From NCBI RefSeq assembly GCF_026651875.1, contig NZ_CP104067.1, positions 3,472,001-3,536,000 of the forward strand: a stretch of DNA of 64,000 nt. Reading direction: 5' to 3'. Below the pieces are notes generated by a model, which worked only from the letters and a program-made list of their open reading frames with translations, ran no database searches and was not told where the DNA came from. The position numbers were made by a program, and so were the translations under genes. The DNA is from Alicyclobacillus fastidiosus (lineage in GTDB: Bacteria > Bacillota > Bacilli > Alicyclobacillales > Alicyclobacillaceae). Of the stretch, positions 9,633-52,542 are shown piece after piece; position 1 is the stretch's first letter; each line of letters begins with the position of its first letter.

Positions 9633-10025
9633 TTAACGTTTTCGATAGAACCGCGAGAGGTCTCCTTGAAACAGAGATTCGGATTTAAATTGATTGCCGA
9701 GCATCTCACGCTCCAACCACTTGTAGACTTCCGTGTCGGACAAATCCTGTTTGTTCGTATGCTTCGGATGCGCCCGACGCCGTTCCATCTCCTCGAAATT
9801 GCGTTTGACGCCAGCCATGTTGTGGCCCTCATCCAACCACTGACGAATGAGCATCAGCCGTTCGACGTCGGCAAACGAGAACTGCCGCTGCTTTCCCGTG
9901 GTACGGGCGGGCTGCACCAGCTCATGCTCTTCGTAGTAGCGGATCTGACGGGCGCTCAGTCCCGTCAATTTTTGGACTGTTCCGATAGAGAACAGTGGCA
10001 GTTGACGACGGTCACTTAAATCCAT
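9633..10025 (-). CDS. glnR: MerR-family nitrogen regulator GlnR
   Basis: 130 residues. A MerR-type winged helix at the N-terminus (FSIGTVQKLTGLSARQIRYY) is followed by a short C-terminal tail, as in Bacillus GlnR, which senses feedback-inhibited glutamine synthetase and represses glnRA in nitrogen excess. It is first in the glnR-glnA operon and a GlnR-type operator lies directly upstream of its promoter. The ATG at 10025 is preceded by a GGGGG stretch. Confidence 0.95.
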   Translation of the reverse strand: MDLSDRRQLPLFSIGTVQKLTGLSARQIRYYEEHELVQPARTTGKQRQFSFADVERLMLIRQWLDEGHNMAGVKRNFEEMERRRAHPKHTNKQDLSDTEVYKWLEREMLGNQFKSESLFQGDLSRFYRKR

Positions 10026-13463: not shown

Positions 13464-14073
13464 GGCGCTTCACCTCTTGAAACCCGGTCCCCTCGCGCGC
13501 AGAGATGGCAAGGATTCGGTCTTTGTCAAGATACTGGCGCAGCCATCGATAGCCCTCGCGCGCACCAGGAAGGTCCATCTTGTTCGCAAGCACGATGTAA
13601 CTCGACCGAGAGCGGCCGAGGGCGAACATCTGCTCGTCGAGATCGTTCAAGCGAAACCCTGTCGTCTCCCCGGCGCGCTGTAACGCCTGCCCGACGACCG
13701 AAGCGTCAATGACGTGAAACACGACTTTGGCTTCGATCATCGACCGGAGCGTCTGCGCCATGGCCCGGCGCACGGATGCGTCGTGATGCAGTCCGTCAGC
13801 GAGGCCGGTGGAGTCGGTCACGCGAATGATGCGATCCGACTTTCCTCGCGGTACGGACAAAATCAGTGTCTGCAGTTCCCTGGTTTGGTGCGCATCCCCG
13901 GAGGAGAGAATTCCCTGCGCCTCGGAGAGCAGCATCCGTCTGCGCTCGGTGCACCCGTCGGTGCGCTCGACCAGCCAATTCAACTCCCGAAGGCCCAGTG
14001 CTCGGGCGAGACGCAGGCAAAAAGACGTCTTGCCGGCGTTCGTCCGTCCGATGACCAACCCGTCTGTATTCAT
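13444..14073 (-). CDS. Small Ras-like GTPase downstream of spoVK
   Basis: 209 residues with G1 GRTNAGKTS at residues 9-17, G3 DSTG, G4 NKMD and G5 ISAREG, so a P-loop GTPase of the TRAFAC class with no extra domain. The ATG follows GGAGGCGAGGAT and overlaps the spoVK stop (ATGA), so it is translationally coupled to the 3' part of spoVK. Partner and role are unknown. It is present only when transcription enters from spoVK or from a promoter within the interrupting element. Confidence 0.85.
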   Translation of the reverse strand: MNTDGLVIGRTNAGKTSFCLRLARALGLRELNWLVERTDGCTERRRMLLSEAQGILSSGDAHQTRELQTLILSVPRGKSDRIIRVTDSTGLADGLHHDASVRRAMAQTLRSMIEAKVVFHVIDASVVGQALQRAGETTGFRLNDLDEQMFALGRSRSSYIVLANKMDLPGAREGYRWLRQYLDKDRILAISAREGTGFQEVKRHVWRLA

Positions 14074-14492
14074 ATCCTCGCCTCCTGCACGAAGTCTGCC
14101 GCCTGTAGCGTGAGTAAGTCCTCCCGCTTTGGACTTTGGACGTCGAACAGCCGAACGGCTTGGTGCCGAACCGCTCGCTCCACGACATTGCGCACCCAAC
14201 GAGCGTTACTAAACGGTTGTCGTCCGTGCACCTGCGAAAGCACTTCCCGGATCTGCTTGCGCAGTTTGAGTTCTGCGTCCACGCTCAACCGATATTGTCG
14301 ATTCGCCACCGCGCGCTTGGCGATGTGCAAAAGCGATTCCGCGTCGTAATCCGGAAAGTGAATCTGGATTGGAAAGCGGCTGGGCAGCCCTGGATTGGTA
14401 CTCAAAAACCACTCCATCTCCGATTCGTAACCGGCCAAAATCGTGATGAACTGGTCTTTATAATCCTCCATCCCCTTGACCAGCGTTGACAT
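14070..14492 (-). CDS. spoVK: spoVK, 3' part (split gene)
   Basis: Encodes the C-terminal 135-140 residues of the AAA+ sporulation protein SpoVK: sensor segment ILAGYESEMEWFLSTNPGL with the SRFP box, then the helical lid. The local ATG at 14492 is part of the inserted element, so the natural frame begins at AAG after the junction repeat at 14476-14480. The Walker A and B motifs are encoded about 3.1 kb away at 17612-18193. Joining the two pieces at GTCAA gives DCLVKGMED across the junction, matching intact SpoVK proteins. Alone this piece cannot bind ATP. Confidence 0.9.
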   Translation of the reverse strand: MSTLVKGMEDYKDQFITILAGYESEMEWFLSTNPGLPSRFPIQIHFPDYDAESLLHIAKRAVANRQYRLSVDAELKLRKQIREVLSQVHGRQPFSNARWVRNVVERAVRHQAVRLFDVQSPKREDLLTLQAADFVQEARI

Positions 14493-16149
14493 TCTTAGAG
14501 TCGGGGCCGCGCAGGTAGGCCCCGTCAGCCCATGCGGTATAGATTTCGATCACGTCATCCTGCAACACTACTTTTCGAATCAACAAATCGACCAGCTGCT
14601 TTTTCTCCGAATCGCCAATTCCACCGGCCAAGTAGCGCCTAAAGGACGCTATCGCCGCCCCCGCTCGCCCACCTTCGCCTGTCGCAGTGAGGGAGGCCAA
14701 CTCCTGTTCCGCGCGGCGCAGTTGGCTCGATAGTTCAGCGAGGTCCCGCAAAAGGGGATGTAGCGCTTCATCTAACTCTGAATCGTCGACCCGGCCCTTA
14801 GCCGCCAGTTGAAGCCAGCGTTTGCGCTCCGCCCGCTTCTGTGCCACAGCGGATAATAGCTTCTGCCGGCGCGTCTTCACCTCTGTCAAACGAAGCGCTT
14901 CCGACCGCTCCCCCCAGATCTGCTCCAACGCGCTGCGCGCCTCTGCAAGACACGAACACACAAAGCGCCACACGTAGTCATCGACCACATCCTGCCGCCA
15001 ATTTCTTCCCGCGCACGCGTGTACTTGCCGCCCGGTACCCACCTCAAAGATTTTTCGCCCCTTTCCCGAGCACGCGTAATAGCGATATATCGGCTCACCG
15101 GTCTGTTTATCTCGCGAGGGCGCACCGGCCACCACCGCGGCGCCACATCGCCCACATCGCACGAGCCCTTTTAGCAAATACGGAGCCTTTGGTTTCGCGC
15201 CGCGGTTGCGCCTGCCAAGAAGAGATATGCGCTCCTGCAATTGATGAAACGTCTTCTCGTCGATATAGGCGGGCACCGGTACCGACTGCCATTCGTGCGC
15301 CGGCCTCCTCACGATTTCCTTCCTGCCGGCCCGTTGGCGGCACTCCGTCTTGCCGTAGTAAAACGTGCCCGTGTAAACCGGGTTCTTGACGATTCGACTC
15401 ACCGTCGCCTGGTACCACTTGTCGCCGCTTGGAGCAGGTATCCCAAGTAGCGAAAGCTCTCTGGCGACGGACGTCAGAGTCATTTGCCGACCGTCCTTCC
15501 CGCGCAAAATCCAGTCGACCATCATGAGGTAGACGTCCCGTTCCACTTCGTTCACCACCAGCGTGTCGTTTGCTTTGTCAAAGCAATAGCCATAAATCCT
15601 TCGTACTCCGGGGATTTTCCCGTTCATCACTTTCGCGCGTCTGCCACGTTTCGAGTTCGCCAAGATCTTCGCCTTGTTGTATTGAGCAATGGCGCCTTGG
15701 ATGTTATACAGCAGCAGCGACTCGGGATTGTTCGGGTCTACGTCCATCTCGACGAAGACGATTTCACAGCCGGCGTTCCATATCCGCTCCGTGATGAAGA
15801 GCTGTAATTTTAAATCGCGTGCCAACCGATCCGGATGCAGCACCACAAACTTATTCCCAACTCCCTGCTCGACCAACCACAACGCCTGGTTTAACGCCGG
15901 GCGATTGGGGTCATCCCCCATCTCGCCTTGTTCCACCACCGCAAGGACGTCTTCGTCCGCGATCTCGTATTTCGTCTCGAGCAATTCGAGGGAACGAGCG
16001 ATTTGTGATTCTAACGAGTACCCGTGTTTCGCCTGATCCTGAGTCGATACGCGCGCGTAAATCACGGCTTTAATGCTGGTCATCAGATGTGTGAGTTCCT
16101 GTTTCGAGTACTCGTGGCCAAAATTTCTGTCGACCGCCAACGTGATCAT
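14458..16149 (-). CDS. Large serine recombinase of the spoVK element
   Basis: 563 residues. The N-terminal resolvase domain has the nucleophile Ser35 in YARVSTQDQ and the HPDRLARD segment; a recombinase domain (AHEW/YIDEKTF region), a zinc ribbon (CGRCGAAV and two further cysteines) and a coiled-coil follow, the layout of SpoIVCA and SprA. It should cut and rejoin the two GTCAA sites. The ATG at 16149 overlaps the stop of the small upstream gene as ATGA. The last seven codons run through the junction repeat into spoVK sequence, so the C-terminus would change on excision. Same orientation as spoVK. Confidence 0.93.
   Translation of the reverse strand: MITLAVDRNFGHEYSKQELTHLMTSIKAVIYARVSTQDQAKHGYSLESQIARSLELLETKYEIADEDVLAVVEQGEMGDDPNRPALNQALWLVEQGVGNKFVVLHPDRLARDLKLQLFITERIWNAGCEIVFVEMDVDPNNPESLLLYNIQGAIAQYNKAKILANSKRGRRAKVMNGKIPGVRRIYGYCFDKANDTLVVNEVERDVYLMMVDWILRGKDGRQMTLTSVARELSLLGIPAPSGDKWYQATVSRIVKNPVYTGTFYYGKTECRQRAGRKEIVRRPAHEWQSVPVPAYIDEKTFHQLQERISLLGRRNRGAKPKAPYLLKGLVRCGRCGAAVVAGAPSRDKQTGEPIYRYYACSGKGRKIFEVGTGRQVHACAGRNWRQDVVDDYVWRFVCSCLAEARSALEQIWGERSEALRLTEVKTRRQKLLSAVAQKRAERKRWLQLAAKGRVDDSELDEALHPLLRDLAELSSQLRRAEQELASLTATGEGGRAGAAIASFRRYLAGGIGDSEKKQLVDLLIRKVVLQDDVIEIYTAWADGAYLRGPDSKNVNAGQGDGGL
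14476..14480 (-). repeat. Junction repeat, spoVK 3' side (att core)
   Basis: GTCAA read on the minus strand, in frame as GTC AAG; the partner copy is at 17610-17614. Confidence 0.8.
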
Positions 16150-16346
16150 CGGCATTCCCCTTCGCTGGCAGACGCGTGCGAGGACTGCGCACGCTCCTCG
16201 GGATCATCCTTGGCGTACATCCTAACTGCCCTGCCCATCAGAGTCACGAGCACATGTGACATCAAGCCTAAGCGTTCAGACAGTGTGACGTCATCTTCGG
16301 CCGGGATCGCGATGACGGAGAATCGGTTCGGGTGCTGGTGTCCCAA
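16146..16346 (-). CDS. 66-aa protein coupled to the recombinase; candidate directionality factor
   Basis: Begins at a TTG seven bases after a GGGGGG site and ends in an ATGA overlap with the recombinase start. The product is soluble, with a central segment SERLGLMSHVLVTLMGRAVR that may form one or two helices, and a polar tail. I do not recognise a family. Because serine integrases need a small recombination directionality factor for excision, and such a factor is often encoded next to the recombinase, this is a candidate; nothing in the sequence proves it. A CATACACA at 16382-16389, on the minus strand, resembles a sigma-E -10, without a good -35. Confidence 0.55.
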   Translation of the reverse strand: MGHQHPNRFSVIAIPAEDDVTLSERLGLMSHVLVTLMGRAVRMYAKDDPEERAQSSHASASEGECR

Positions 16347-16471
16347 CTGCCATCCCCCCTGATTCTGAGTGTCAGAGTGATGTGTATGCACCGGACGAAG
16401 GCGGACAAACCAGCGCTTGTGGATTGCGGTTACGCTCGAGTTCGCTCGCGAACCATCGTGCAAAATAAACA

Positions 16472-16513
16472 GGGGTTGTCCCAAAGTCGTTGGCGTGACT
16501 TTGGAACAACCCC
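16472..16513. repeat. Long hairpin: terminator or IS-end palindrome
   Basis: Two 17-base arms (GGGGTTGT-CCAAAGTC type) pair with one mismatch around an 8-base loop. On the minus strand it is followed by TGTTTATTTTG, so it could terminate transcription. The arm also resembles terminal repeats of some insertion sequences (GGGG-TGTCCCAAA), so a MITE-like origin is possible. Confidence 0.6.
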
Positions 16514-16610
16514 GTCTTCCGATCACGCTCAGCGCGGCCGGACTCTATGTAGTTGTTAAAGACTAGCGCACGCGTGCACAGCTTCCGAGATTGCCCGTGT
16601 GCTAGCACAT

Positions 16611-16794
16611 TTACCCCAAAAAACGATAGTCCCCCGTACTTGATTTCTAGGACCTGCCCATCACGCCATCATTCGCCATGTCACCCACTAACCCGCTAAA
16701 CCGATTGGGAGGCAACCATGTTACCCTATTGGAGTCAATCATAAAAACAAGCCGAATCCTGTTTACGCAGGTACGGGGGACTTTATTTGGGGTG
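16611..16794. repeat. Inverted-repeat pair before the NlpC/P60 gene
   Basis: Left arm (16612-16642) ACCCCAAA ... AGTCCCCCGTACTTG and right arm (16768-16794) CAGGTACGGGGGACT ... TTTGGGGT are imperfect inverted copies about 30 bp long, enclosing about 125 bp without a convincing gene. A 12-bp perfect palindrome TGTGCTAGCACA lies just before it at 16598-16609. The arrangement is MITE-like, or could be an operator pair for the hydrolase gene. Confidence 0.5.
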
Positions 16795-16880
16795 AATCGT
16801 GAAGGGTTTTGCCTTTCACGTAGGGACATTTCTTCCACCGAACCCGTCAACTAACCTCGGAGGCTCTGGGAGGAAAGCTT

Positions 16881-17411
16881 TTGAATATCAAATCTGTCGT
16901 CGCTGGATTGGCTGGTATGGCCACGGTCTTTACGCTGGGTACGTCCGTATCTATGGCAAGCACGTTTCAGTTGCCACCTGGGGTAAGTATCGATCACTCC
17001 ATCAAACCGCTCGCCTCTGAGAGCGCGTCGACGCAAGCGAAAACCACCGCGGTTCTGAAGGTCGCTGAGAGCAAACTCGGGACGCCTTACATCTGGGGAC
17101 ACAACGAAGACCGCGGACAGTATGGTTTTGACTGCTCCAATTTCACGGCATACGTCTATCACCATGCACTGGGTTACAAGATCACCACCTTTTCTACAAA
17201 ACAGTACACGTCGGTTGGTTACAAGGAACCCAAGTCAGATTTGCAGCCGGGGGATTTACTGTCGTTTAATGACGGCGGACACTCTGGCATTTACGTTGGC
17301 AACGGTGAAATGATTCAATGTGGCGGCGGACTCGGAAAAGTTGGATATCTGAGCGTGAAGCCAGGTTCCTACTGGTACAAGCACCTGTCAGCCGTGAAAA
17401 AGATGTACTAA
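16881..17411 (+). CDS. Secreted NlpC/P60 cell-wall peptidase
   Basis: 176 residues. A signal peptide covers the first 27 or so residues (ends MAS). The NlpC/P60 domain has the catalytic Cys in FDCSNFTAYVY, the catalytic His in GGHSGIYVG and the usual GTPYIWG entry segment. It should cleave stem peptides of peptidoglycan outside the membrane. The TTG start lies 8 bases after GGGAGG. It is the passenger of the spoVK element, facing the other way from the recombinase, and is closed by a strong hairpin. A role in spore or mother-cell wall turnover is only an inference from its location. Confidence 0.88.
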   Translation: MNIKSVVAGLAGMATVFTLGTSVSMASTFQLPPGVSIDHSIKPLASESASTQAKTTAVLKVAESKLGTPYIWGHNEDRGQYGFDCSNFTAYVYHHALGYKITTFSTKQYTSVGYKEPKSDLQPGDLLSFNDGGHSGIYVGNGEMIQCGGGLGKVGYLSVKPGSYWYKHLSAVKKMY

Positions 17412-17491
17412 ACCTCCCACATCAGAGGACGCGAACGCATGACGATTCGACTGTGTTCGCAGATGTGCACCGACGCTGTGCTCGTGAGGAT

Positions 17492-17520
17492 AACGGGGGC
17501 GCCCAATGGGCGCCCCCGTT
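17492..17520 (+). terminator. Strong hairpin terminator
   Basis: 13-bp perfect stem AACGGGGGCGCCC with a 3-base loop, then GTCATTTACGTTTT. It ends the NlpC/P60 unit; in an excised circle it would also lie directly after the extended recombinase frame. Confidence 0.75.
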
Positions 17521-17596
17521 GTCATTTACGTTTTCCCTGCCTTCAGTGACGCGTCATCCACTGCGTCGAGCCAAAGCTCAACCTCACCACCATATT

Positions 17597-18193
17597 TCAA
17601 TCCTTCGTGTTGACGAGACAGTCAATTGCCTCCCGACCAAAGTCTTTTTCCCCGCCTCTCGCCAGCGAGTATGCTTCGTCGATGAACAGCACCCCACCCA
17701 GCGCTTTTTTAATCAGTTCCCGCGTCTTTTGGGCTGTGTGTCCAATGTACTCACCGACGAGATCCGCTCGCTCCACTTCCACCAAGTGTCCCTGCGACAA
17801 AAGCCCACATTCGTGGAACAACCGCGCTAAGATCCGGGCCACAGTGGTTTTCCCTGTACCTGGATTGCCAAGAAAAACCATATGAAGAACCACGGGTTCC
17901 GCTTTGAGGTGATGGCGTATACGCGTTTGTTGTACGAATACGTACGCAAAGATCTCACGCACCACTCGCTTGACTTCGCCTAGCCCCACCAATTCATCTA
18001 ATTCTGTGAGGAGCGACACCAGTCGTGATTTGTCCACCTCCGGACGTCCCGACGACGCTGTGGAATGATGTCCAGAAAGTTGTTGCAAGGCTTCCGTCAG
18101 GGCGATTTGACCCTGTTCATATTCCTGAATCACCTGTAGTGACATCTCTTTTTTCGGTGTGTGGGTCATTCGATTTCGGCTGCCAGGTTTCAT
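17597..18193 (-). CDS. spoVK: spoVK, 5' part (split gene)
   Basis: Encodes the N-terminal 194 native residues of SpoVK plus four element-derived residues before a TGA. Visible are Walker A ([16 protein letters not shown]), the segment [15 protein letters not shown] and Walker B ([16 protein letters not shown]). The protein breaks off at EAIDCLV, exactly where the junction repeat lies, so the sensor and lid of the AAA+ module are missing. The ATG at 18193 follows GAGGGGTGG. SpoVK is needed for mature heat-resistant spores in B. subtilis and is made in the mother cell; the truncated form should be inactive. Confidence 0.9.
17610..17614 (-). repeat. Junction repeat, spoVK 5' side (att core)
   Basis: GTCAA on the minus strand, in frame as GTC AAC; partner of 14476-14480. 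Confidence 0.8.
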
Positions 18194-18287
18194 GGAACCA
18201 CCCCTCGTTTGACGTATTTGCCCGAGCGGCCAACACCTCAACCTATGCATGGGCGCAAATATGGGTGATGGCCCAGAACAAAATGAG

Positions 18288-50593: not shown

Positions 50594-51095
50594 GGTGGTC
50601 TCCCCTCTCAATTCGGGGCCCAACGTCTCCTACTAAATAGATATGATTCCATGTCCAAGAATATTCCTATTGACATACAAGTGTTGGCATGTTTTCAAAT
50701 CTTCGTGTGATCCAGCCACACGCCCCGCTCGACGACTGGGCACCCGCCCTTGTCCACATTTGCTTTGCGCCTTGGGCGCGAACGCCCCGCACCCAACATC
50801 ACCTCACGTCGCATGCGGCGCTGAATCCCTTCAATTCGCCTCCTTCCCATTCCTCGATGTGCCCACTGCACGGATCACGAAGTCCTGATACGCTTTGGTG
50901 TGCGCCTGCGTCCAACGTCCCACGACCGTGATGGTGGGCGGTTTCGGCTGTAATTTCTCCACAATATCACCCCCAGAGATCCCGTTTCACCGCTCCCGCA
51001 CCGGCGCGTGACCGCCGCTGCCAGACATTCCTCACTCATTCCTATGCCGGGCAGGTTTGTCTGTTTGCCCGACTGAGCGTGGTGACAACACAGAT
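50594..51095. other. Gene-free stretch inside the cotE element
   Basis: About 500 bases between the toxin-like gene and the recombinase promoter. A TTGACA at 50670 has no fitting -10. No convincing gene or hairpin was found on either strand. Confidence 0.4.
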
Positions 51096-51125
51096 GCATG
51101 TCGCGAGGGGTCGTCGCCATAATGT
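51096..51125 (+). promoter_or_regulatory. Sigma-E-like promoter before the cotE-element recombinase
   Basis: GCATGTC, 15-base spacer, CATAATGT, about 22 bases before the start codon. The -10 keeps CATA and the final T of the sigma-E consensus; the -35 fits in five of seven places. Mother-cell expression would suit an excision enzyme. Confidence 0.4.
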
Positions 51126-51147
51126 GACAAGTGAAGGGGTGAATCCG

Positions 51148-52542
51148 ATGCGAGCCGCCATTTACATTCGCGTGTCCACGCAGGAACAAGCAAGCGAAGG
51201 ATTTTCCTTGTCGGCACAGACACAAAAACTGCGTGCCTATTGTGAGAGTCAAGACTGGAGCGTCGCAGATGTGTATGCCGACGAGGGATTCTCTGCAAAA
51301 GACACCGACCGACCGTCCCTACAACGTTTGATGCAGGACATTTCGAACCGTCAACTCGACGTGGTACTTGTGTATAAACTCGATCGCCTCACGCGATCCG
51401 TCTCTGACCTCTATGAACTCCTGCGATGGTTCGATAAGTATGACGTCGGCTTTAAATCGGCGACGGAAATATTCGATACGACAACCGCCATTGGCCGGCT
51501 CTTTATCACCATGGTCGCGGCGATGGCGCAATGGGAGCGAGAGACCATCGGTGAACGGGTATCGGTTGGCATGGCACAAAAGGCGCTAGAGGGAAAGCGC
51601 GTGACGGCGAGCGCGCCGTTTGGGTATATCAAACGCGGTGACACATTGGTCGTTCAAGAATCAGAGGCCGAAATCGTCCGGGAGGTATTTCGCAAATACA
51701 TCTGTGGGTATGGCCTTCACCGTCTCAACAAGTGGTTGCAAAGTACGCATGCCAGCGACCGGATCGCTGACCCCCACACAATTGCCTACATGCTGGAGAA
51801 TCCGGTGTACATCGGCAAACTGCGCTGGGGATTTAGAAGCTCCAAGAGTCACCAAGAGGTGATCATTACAGACGGAGACCACCCCCCCATCATCGACGAT
51901 GGAACGTGGGAACTAGCACAAGCTGTCCGCGGGCGGAGGCGGTGTGCTTCCCCGCGATCCGGCACTGGGTTGTTTCCATTTACCGGACTGCTCTACTGTT
52001 CGCAGTGCGGTGGGAAAATGGTCGGGTATCACGGGCGCAAATATCGATACTACCGATGCAGAAATCACCGCCTGCATATGTGTCGCGCCAAAATGGTCCG
52101 ATGTGACGTAATGGAACCTGTCATCATCGGTTTTCTCGACCAGATGAGCCAGGAATCCCTTTCCAGGGGCACACCGCCCGCTTCGGTGGAGACGGCATCC
52201 GCCAAGATGCGCGACGTGGAGCGAGGGAGAAGCTTACTGGAGGCTAGAAAGAGACGATTGTGGGACGCATATGAACGGGAAAGCATCACTCTTGAGGAAT
52301 TGAGCGAACGCCTCAAACGAATCGAACAAGAAGAACGCGCCTTGAACGACCAGGAGGTGGGTACAAACCAGGAAAAAACGAACGACGAGCCATCGCGACC
52401 TTCAATCGCAGAGGTGACACAGCGATTGAGCGTTGGTTGGGAGTCACTGCAACCATTACAGCGCAAAGAACTCGCGCGCGCACTCATCGAACGGATAGAC
52501 GTCGATCGCGAGCACATTCAGGTTCAGCTGAAACGGATGTAG
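51148..52542 (+). CDS. Large serine recombinase of the cotE element
   Basis: 464 residues. Resolvase domain with nucleophile Ser10 in YIRVSTQEQ and the KLDRLTRS segment; recombinase domain (PFGYIKRG ... NPVYIGKLRWG); zinc ribbon YCSQCGGKM with partner YRCRNH..MCRAK; coiled coil with many Glu/Arg; short end. This is the architecture of SpoIVCA and related integrases. ATG after GAAGGGG. It stops 14 bp short of the AAGCT repeat and is read against cotE. It is clearly different from the spoVK-element recombinase, so each element has its own enzyme. Confidence 0.94.
   Translation: MRAAIYIRVSTQEQASEGFSLSAQTQKLRAYCESQDWSVADVYADEGFSAKDTDRPSLQRLMQDISNRQLDVVLVYKLDRLTRSVSDLYELLRWFDKYDVGFKSATEIFDTTTAIGRLFITMVAAMAQWERETIGERVSVGMAQKALEGKRVTASAPFGYIKRGDTLVVQESEAEIVREVFRKYICGYGLHRLNKWLQSTHASDRIADPHTIAYMLENPVYIGKLRWGFRSSKSHQEVIITDGDHPPIIDDGTWELAQAVRGRRRCASPRSGTGLFPFTGLLYCSQCGGKMVGYHGRKYRYYRCRNHRLHMCRAKMVRCDVMEPVIIGFLDQMSQESLSRGTPPASVETASAKMRDVERGRSLLEARKRRLWDAYERESITLEELSERLKRIEQEERALNDQEVGTNQEKTNDEPSRPSIAEVTQRLSVGWESLQPLQRKELARALIERIDVDREHIQVQLKRM

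Follow-up and report, generated by a model that had tools for sequence, protein, structure and literature searches.

The 64,000-nt stretch of the Alicyclobacillus fastidiosus genome analyzed here (the window; its genome is designated G000) carries the sporulation gene spoVK in two pieces separated by 3.1 kb. As judged from its sequence, the intervening DNA is very probably a domesticated skin-type integrative element whose excision in the mother cell would rebuild spoVK. The gene can be rebuilt exactly, and 16 other genomes have inserts of the same family at this codon; the arrangement therefore looks like a conserved DNA switch and not like a broken gene. spoVK is thereby added to those genes whose activation in spore formers appears to depend on DNA deletion. 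A preliminary description of this DNA had proposed that spoVK is turned on by programmed deletion. The proposal is supported by the present analysis, and we infer its timing during sporulation from purifying selection on the split gene, a conserved -10 box and the analogy with published systems.

In the mechanism envisaged, a mother-cell promoter of the sigmaE/SpoIIID or sigmaK type would turn on a small open reading frame (ORF) upstream of the recombinase gene. The product of this ORF would act as a directionality factor, with which the large serine recombinase (LSR) of the element would join attL and attR. A circle would be released and spoVK, whose own promoter looks mother-cell-like, would be restored. 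The spore would keep the split gene because excision would be confined to the mother cell, which dies.

Predicted reconstitution of spoVK and the attachment site

Both spoVK pieces lie on the minus strand and the bounds first assigned to them are borne out by coordinates and domain matches (Table 1). The plus strand has TTGAC repeats at 14476-14480 and 17610-17614 whose spacing of 3134 bp leaves a remainder of 2 modulo 3, and removal of this length corrects the reading frame as had been predicted. The pieces joined at the repeats encode a 329-aa SpoVK that matches TIGR02881 (spore_V_K) with an E-value of 2.5e-122 and 406.9 bits, slightly below the curated cut-off of 422.95, and that fits this family far better than CbbX. 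A search of the genome (6.04 Mb, 4 contigs) at E 1e-5 finds no second spoVK, in line with the earlier expectation that it holds no other intact copy.

The preliminary description placed the direct repeat GTCAA at the joints. A five-base repeat with a fitting frame is weak evidence when taken alone, and 13 other matches of 5-6 bases, some overlapping, are found between the two end regions. The coincidence amounts to more than chance since the joint falls in the same Lys codon in 17/17 split loci (described below) and the site is empty in the relative G007. GTCAA is present at both ends in the window, but it is too long to be the crossover: both ends have it in 4 of the 17 loci, window included, and the 5' joints read AAC in 4/17. 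The only dinucleotide common to both ends of every locus is the AA of the Lys codon, and the common core is thus AA alone. Joining at AA yields an open SpoVK frame, with no stop, in all 17 composites.

An imperfect inverted repeat surrounds the AA at the predicted attP of 15 elements (shuffle p<0.05), the test being failed by G006 (0.15) and G135 (0.14). The dyad of the window element comprises 12/28 positions (shuffle p 0.034). No dyad is found at the rebuilt gene site in any of the 17 loci. These 17 natural att pairs with one invariant dinucleotide can serve directly as a set for studying the specificity of a serine integrase.

Uninterrupted relatives keep the site, as the preliminary description anticipated: it reads GGTCAAGGGGATGGAGG in G007 and GGTCAAAGGGATGGAAG in G001, the two relatives looked at. 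The sister genome G007 has an intact SpoVK that is 96% identical, and the emptied window locus aligns with it over 1765 bp at 90.4% identity with 0 gaps. Between window positions 9789 and 26000 the element is the only long stretch absent from G007.

Distribution, inheritance and selection of the split gene

All 41 genomes of the family sample have spoVK, which is a single stretch in 31 and is in two pieces in ten (G000, G004, G005, G006, G009, G011, G013, G019, G026 and G029). The pieces of these ten meet at residues ~190-200; they are on separate contigs in G026 and G029. The family genomes with a split gene include A. suci, A. sp. SP_1, A. mengziensis, A. hesperidum, A. sacchari, A. tolerans and A. 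tengchongensis. The same ten have an LSR 56-68% identical to that of the window adjoining the 3' piece, while the next LSR matches in the 41 genomes reach at most 36% identity among the matches listed. The length of the element ranges from 3.1 to 34.7 kb in the eight family loci with both joints on one contig. Seven further split loci are found outside the family, up to Pelotomaculum, bringing the total lined up to 17. A second spoVK-like gene of G029 (C79) was considered as a replacement copy and rejected: its branch is very long and it is a paralogue, judged CbbX-like.

The wider sample, made of public genome contigs, covers the best 80 of 136 relatives in 79 loci. LSRs with at least 41% identity are present in 11 of these loci (L089-L099), each with at least one spoVK piece, and none of the remaining 68 has a spoVK piece within the stretch examined. 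The 11 loci belong to Alicyclobacillus (seven), Paenibacillus (two), Pelotomaculum terephthalicicum (one) and a bin labelled Actinomycetes (one). The latter, L095, features a split spoVK, an LSR and a candidate factor, and its label is probably wrong. In the class sample (398 genomes, LSR threshold E 1e-90), 15 genomes have an LSR of the window type: eight of the family, three others with the LSR at spoVK (G129, G168 and G135) and four with the LSR elsewhere (G073, G239, G263 and G296, ~41-43% identity). The 17 split loci and these four form one clade in the LSR tree (100/100), with the four placed inside it at two places. The target has thus probably changed more than once. Both the LSR and the SpoVK trees carry long-branch warnings.

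Within the genus the recombinase and SpoVK trees agree, with the groupings (G006,(G000,(G004,G013))) and (G011,(G005,G009)). This agreement indicates that spoVK probably stayed split and functional through several speciations. The intact G007 falls beside G000 and would most simply have lost the element. The split state is apparently inheritable through speciation, cleanly lost and reducible to 3.1 kb. With loss, inheritance and reduction in one family, the series leading from phage to gene switch can be studied there.

The ratios of non-synonymous to synonymous substitution rates (dN/dS) of split spoVK are 0.034, 0.046, 0.042, 0.021 and 0.024 in five of seven pairs, dS being saturated in the other two, and those of seven intact pairs are 0.037-0.137. 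For the 3' piece alone the ratios are 0.011-0.103 in the same five split pairs and 0.026-0.147 in 6/7 intact pairs. By this measure of sequence change the split spoVK is kept under purifying selection, 3' piece included.

Selection bears directly on the alternative that a mobile element has turned spoVK into a pseudogene and that the organism either forms spores without SpoVK or forms none. In the assembly the gene is interrupted, no excision has been seen, and three other elements carry an intact spoVK, showing that its disruption can be compensated otherwise. However, purifying selection acts on both pieces, even on the 3' piece that is severed from promoter and start, the 17 composites are all free of stops, and the window genome has no intact copy. 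Furthermore, although a ~158-kb element splits the gene in G135, the composite SpoVK of this genome is identical, over the aligned part, to the intact protein of two congeneric genomes. Decay of spoVK to a pseudogene is considered improbable. The same measurements concern the idea that the truncated 198-aa SpoVK is functional itself and the element a neutral passenger. The 5' piece does retain the Walker part and its own upstream region, but the 3' piece, with the AAA lid, shows about the conservation found in intact genes, and the length of the 5' piece beyond the joint varies from 4 to 56 residues among the 17 loci. This idea is hardly credible.

The assembly of A. sacchari DSM 17974 (G011, L078) contains two 7407-bp copies of its element with 0 differences between them, joined by the exact predicted attP and directly followed by an N gap. 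Most simply, reads across this junction existed, originating from a circle or from a tandem.

Candidate directionality factor and proposed timing of excision

The earlier account of the element can be extended by a candidate gene for the recombination directionality factor and by a riboswitch-controlled NlpC/P60 gene. A small ORF ends at the start of the recombinase gene in 10/10 family elements, the overlap being 10 nt in the window element, and encodes proteins of 63-77 aa. Their starts were placed by hand after the ribosome-binding site. The region that precedes the candidate factor is probably noncoding because its length differs by one base between G004 and G013. The ORF of the window has no family in Pfam or PHROGs, and the factors of two relatives have none in Pfam. 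A profile of the ten factors was compared to 33 other loci at E<0.5. Its only matches are to the ORF immediately preceding the LSR, in G412 (8.9e-7), G411 (3.7e-5, two overlapping loci) and G168 (0.0016); it finds no candidate factor beside the LSR in G129, G135, G409 and G410.

A CATA[CG] box is located 29-42 nt before the factor start in nine of ten elements and five of six lineages, G006 having AATAC (P 1.5e-6 versus background windows of the same loci, with motif and lineages picked after seeing the sequences). The box resembles the -10 consensus of sigmaE/sigmaK promoters. The upstream regions of spoVK share TCACCC and GCATAGG as seen by eye, except for that of G001, which was cut short. 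In B. subtilis, sigmaE and sigmaK promoters serve spoVK, which together with the skin recombinase gene spoIVCA is almost fully SpoIIID-dependent (PMC517825).

Excision might also be untimed, occurring at low frequency from a decaying prophage remnant, with a few revertant cells making the spores. G007, without element and without scar, is what would be expected if the germ line excises too, and no -35 part of the promoter was identified. Long co-inheritance with host genes, however, needs retention of the element through spores, and a similar sporulation-type -10 box precedes the candidate factor in relatives. This explanation is unlikely, and excision programmed in the mother cell is preferred.

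Several observations weigh against programmed excision. The dN/dS pairs are few and non-independent, and two of the five have dS values greater than 2. The intact spoVK of G007 implies that the split state is not required. The A. sacchari junction is maybe a real tandem dimer or an assembly loop at the N gap and is silent on timing, while no excision product was seen in the window genome. No candidate factor was found beside the LSR in G129, which has no other full spoVK, or in the three elements of the replacement type. The P-value of the -10 box was obtained post hoc, and the elements share no agreed -35 sequence. SpoIIID-like sites near the box were found by eye only, and their strand and distance differ. 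Finally, the dyad of the window element (12/28) is weaker than that of most relatives and its candidate factor is, by eye, among the more diverged ones, so that the window copy could be partly decayed.

Table 1. Features of the spoVK locus, in positions of the 64,000-nt window.
Feature	Position	Strand	Remarks
5' piece of spoVK	17610..18193	-	194 codons and the AA of codon Lys195; Walker A/B; AAA, E 3.8e-15
3' piece of spoVK	14070..14477	-	Lys195 codon to stop; AAA_lid_6, E 1.2e-18
Intervening element	14478..17611		3134 bp; crossover set in AA, plus strand TT at 14476-14477 / 17610-17611
attR element half, CTCTAAGAATGTCAACGCTGGTCAA	14476..14500	-	One arm of the attP dyad
attL element half, AACACGAAGGATTGAAATATGG	17590..17611	-	Opposite arm of the dyad
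Large serine recombinase, 565 aa	14458..16155	-	Resolvase, Recombinase and zinc ribbon domains; YARVST motif
Candidate recombination directionality factor, 66 aa	16146..16346	-	TTG start placed after AGGGGGG
sigmaE/sigmaK-like -10 box, CATACACAT	16380..16388	-	42 nt before the candidate factor; relatives have a similar box
Putative mother-cell promoter of spoVK, TCACCCATATTTGCGCCCATGCATAGGTT	18240..18268	-	By eye; similar in relatives
c-di-AMP (ydaO/yuaA) riboswitch, within the element	16740..16880	+	RF00379, 77.7 bits versus gathering threshold 38
NlpC/P60 cell-wall hydrolase	16881..17411	+	Host-type cargo behind the c-di-AMP riboswitch

Related elements, integrase tails and cargo

By analogy, the spoVK element would work like skin in sigK, SPbeta in spsM and phi3T in kamA. 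It interrupts an otherwise intact sporulation gene, it has its cognate recombinase beside the attachment site, the reading frame is restored by its removal and the gene bears the mark of selection. The mother-cell expression of spoVK assumed in this assignment is that known from B. subtilis. The skin element of B. subtilis sigK (spoIVCA/skr) likewise combines an LSR with a small, overlapping factor ORF upstream and rebuilds a mother-cell gene (PMC6957869); the place and size of skr (64 aa) are comparable. skin differs by its target gene, its length (48 kb versus 3.1 kb) and the overlap of the factor gene (101 nt versus 10 nt here), and the likeness is one of gene arrangement. In Bacillus cereus, gin is also a non-prophage element with its own recombinase and factor that is excised from gerE in sporulation, but the gene and the recombinase set (girABC, girX) are others (PMC5595907). 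phi3T and SPbeta share an att-rdf-int module whose excision reconstitutes a mother-cell gene and differ in being full phages with other published att cores (PMC6957869 and PMC8270828). Among the 12 best phage matches listed (274 further records unlisted) their integrases do not appear.

The phage counterpart is vB_BsuS-Goe14 (Goe14) of the SPbeta group (also SPR, SPbetaL2, BUCT082 and BUCT083), whose integrase is 41% identical over 92% of the window recombinase. Goe14 reportedly integrates into spoVK of B. subtilis (Kohm et al. 2022). The attachment site AAG annotated in its record sits where the core predicted here aligns, which supports the core independently. Among 619 AA-centred windows of the 4.6-kb Goe14 locus, the annotated place is the single best for 8/17 elements, including that of the window, is tied best for three and ranks 7th to 24th for six. 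Goe14 differs in being a 125-kb phage with a 693-aa integrase, while the window element has 3.1 kb, a 565-aa recombinase lacking the helix-turn-helix (HTH) tail, and host-type cargo. No report of an interrupted spoVK was found in the open PubMed Central literature, most subscription papers being outside the search. As far as searched, the small domesticated element in spoVK, its spread, the candidate factor, the replacement copies and the self-trimming integrases are new.

The window LSR, whose YARVST motif is presumably the catalytic-serine motif, has an ORF that extends 18 bases beyond the core, its final codons lying inside the spoVK 3' piece. In most of the 17 elements the attachment site is likewise inside the LSR reading frame. 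Reading the LSR through the circle junction adds 131-143 residues in G019, G026, G029, G135, G409 and G412, 83 residues in G168 and 96 in G411. The gain does not exceed 28 residues in G000 (the window), G004, G013, G006, G129 and G410, and the LSR stops before the core in G005, G009 and G011. A profile built from the six long tails matches the uncut 693-aa Goe14 integrase from the core onwards (4e-27). It also matches the LSRs of G239, G263 and G296, which are likewise uncut (~1e-44) and in whose genomes spoVK is whole. The tail is cut where spoVK is cut in 8/8 tail-bearing elements; it is whole elsewhere, in three of four genomes and in the phage, G073 being without tail. In A. mengziensis the tail has a match to Sigma70_r4 (1.5e-7), an HTH, and that of G135 gives only weak matches. 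A 137-aa ORF following the 5' piece in G019, G026 and G029, with a PHROGs HNH match in G019, was regarded as unknown cargo and rejected, as it is the integrase tail.

Archaeal suicidal tyrosine integrases of the SSV1 type also have the attachment site in the integrase gene, which is cut by integration (PMC8371274). The larger spoVK elements differ in that their integrase is a bacterial serine enzyme of which the C-terminal tail only is cut, with the catalytic and zinc-ribbon parts whole; the window recombinase itself has no tail. No earlier self-trimming serine integrase was found for bacteria in a limited literature search and in the part of that review available.

A broader reading can be offered tentatively, at a little less than an even chance. 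One LSR family of Bacilli and Pelotomaculum would target the spoVK Lys codon and its larger members would keep the site in their own gene, such that insertion cuts both spoVK and the HTH tail. By a single excision the chromosome would regain SpoVK and the circle the long integrase. The tail would report which state the element is in; its role as a sensor of the integrated or free form is a conjecture. Lineages might then settle as tail-bearing and phage-like, as tailless and excise-only (the window element) or as carriers of a replacement spoVK (two Paenibacillus and G135), and this would be the first self-trimming integrase of bacteria. Integrases cut by their own insertion offer a testable route for an integrase to sense its state. 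The window element has neither an HTH tail nor phage genes, suggesting that it is kept for excision rather than for transfer.

The occupants of spoVK are of three sorts: elements in genomes without other full spoVK, elements with a replacement spoVK, and SPbeta-group phages with an LSR of the same family. No other full spoVK was found in the genomes of 14 elements (the window and 13 others). An intact spoVK is carried inside the element by G135 (L186, ~158 kb), Paenibacillus sp. NAIST15-1 (L215, ~148 kb) and P. senegalensis JC66 (L219, ~4.4 kb), and these inner copies share 60-64% identity with the split spoVK of their own genome. SpoVK-like proteins occur in 12 of 50,697 phage records, one of them annotated as stage V sporulation protein K.

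No phage structural or replication gene was recognised by Pfam and PHROGs in the three ORFs scanned in the window element. In the prophage scan its LSR matches integrases and its NlpC/P60 gene the hydrolase part of tail proteins. The NlpC/P60 gene with the c-di-AMP riboswitch is cargo in G000, G004, G006 and G013, and NlpC/P60 relatives are found elsewhere too in all 15 genus genomes searched. A GGGGGACT motif of the minus strand was tried as a second riboswitch and rejected, as Rfam matched the plus-strand riboswitch only. Ten ORFs were scanned in other elements, and the cargo looked at is largely ordinary. Those of G004 (L074) encode a cytochrome oxidase subunit, UbiA, a histidine kinase and a lactate/malate dehydrogenase; those of A. 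hesperidum (L077) a DeoR protein, PfkB, a fructose-type phosphotransferase system (PTS) protein and a nitronate monooxygenase. The A. mengziensis S30H14 element (L080/L081) encodes a GerA protein and a phage-type replication protein, the latter suggesting that the larger elements may be prophage-derived. Host-type genes such as gerA or those of the cytochrome oxidase subunit and the fructose-type PTS would leave the mother cell upon excision. Two adjacent fluoride riboswitches are located within the 34.7-kb element of G019 (L081 12021-12215, minus strand).

The window contains a second large serine recombinase gene (487 aa) at 51079-52542 on the plus strand, and PF07508 has 12 matches in all in G000. 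The same genome has a sigK-like gene in three pieces at G000:C1:4383222-4391797 (L230), covering model positions 4-74, 65-143 and 141-225, with one large serine recombinase between the first and second pieces and another between the second and third. A separate intact sigK-like gene, above the family cut-off, lies at 2109838-2110506. Two intervening elements within one sigma factor gene would be unusual.

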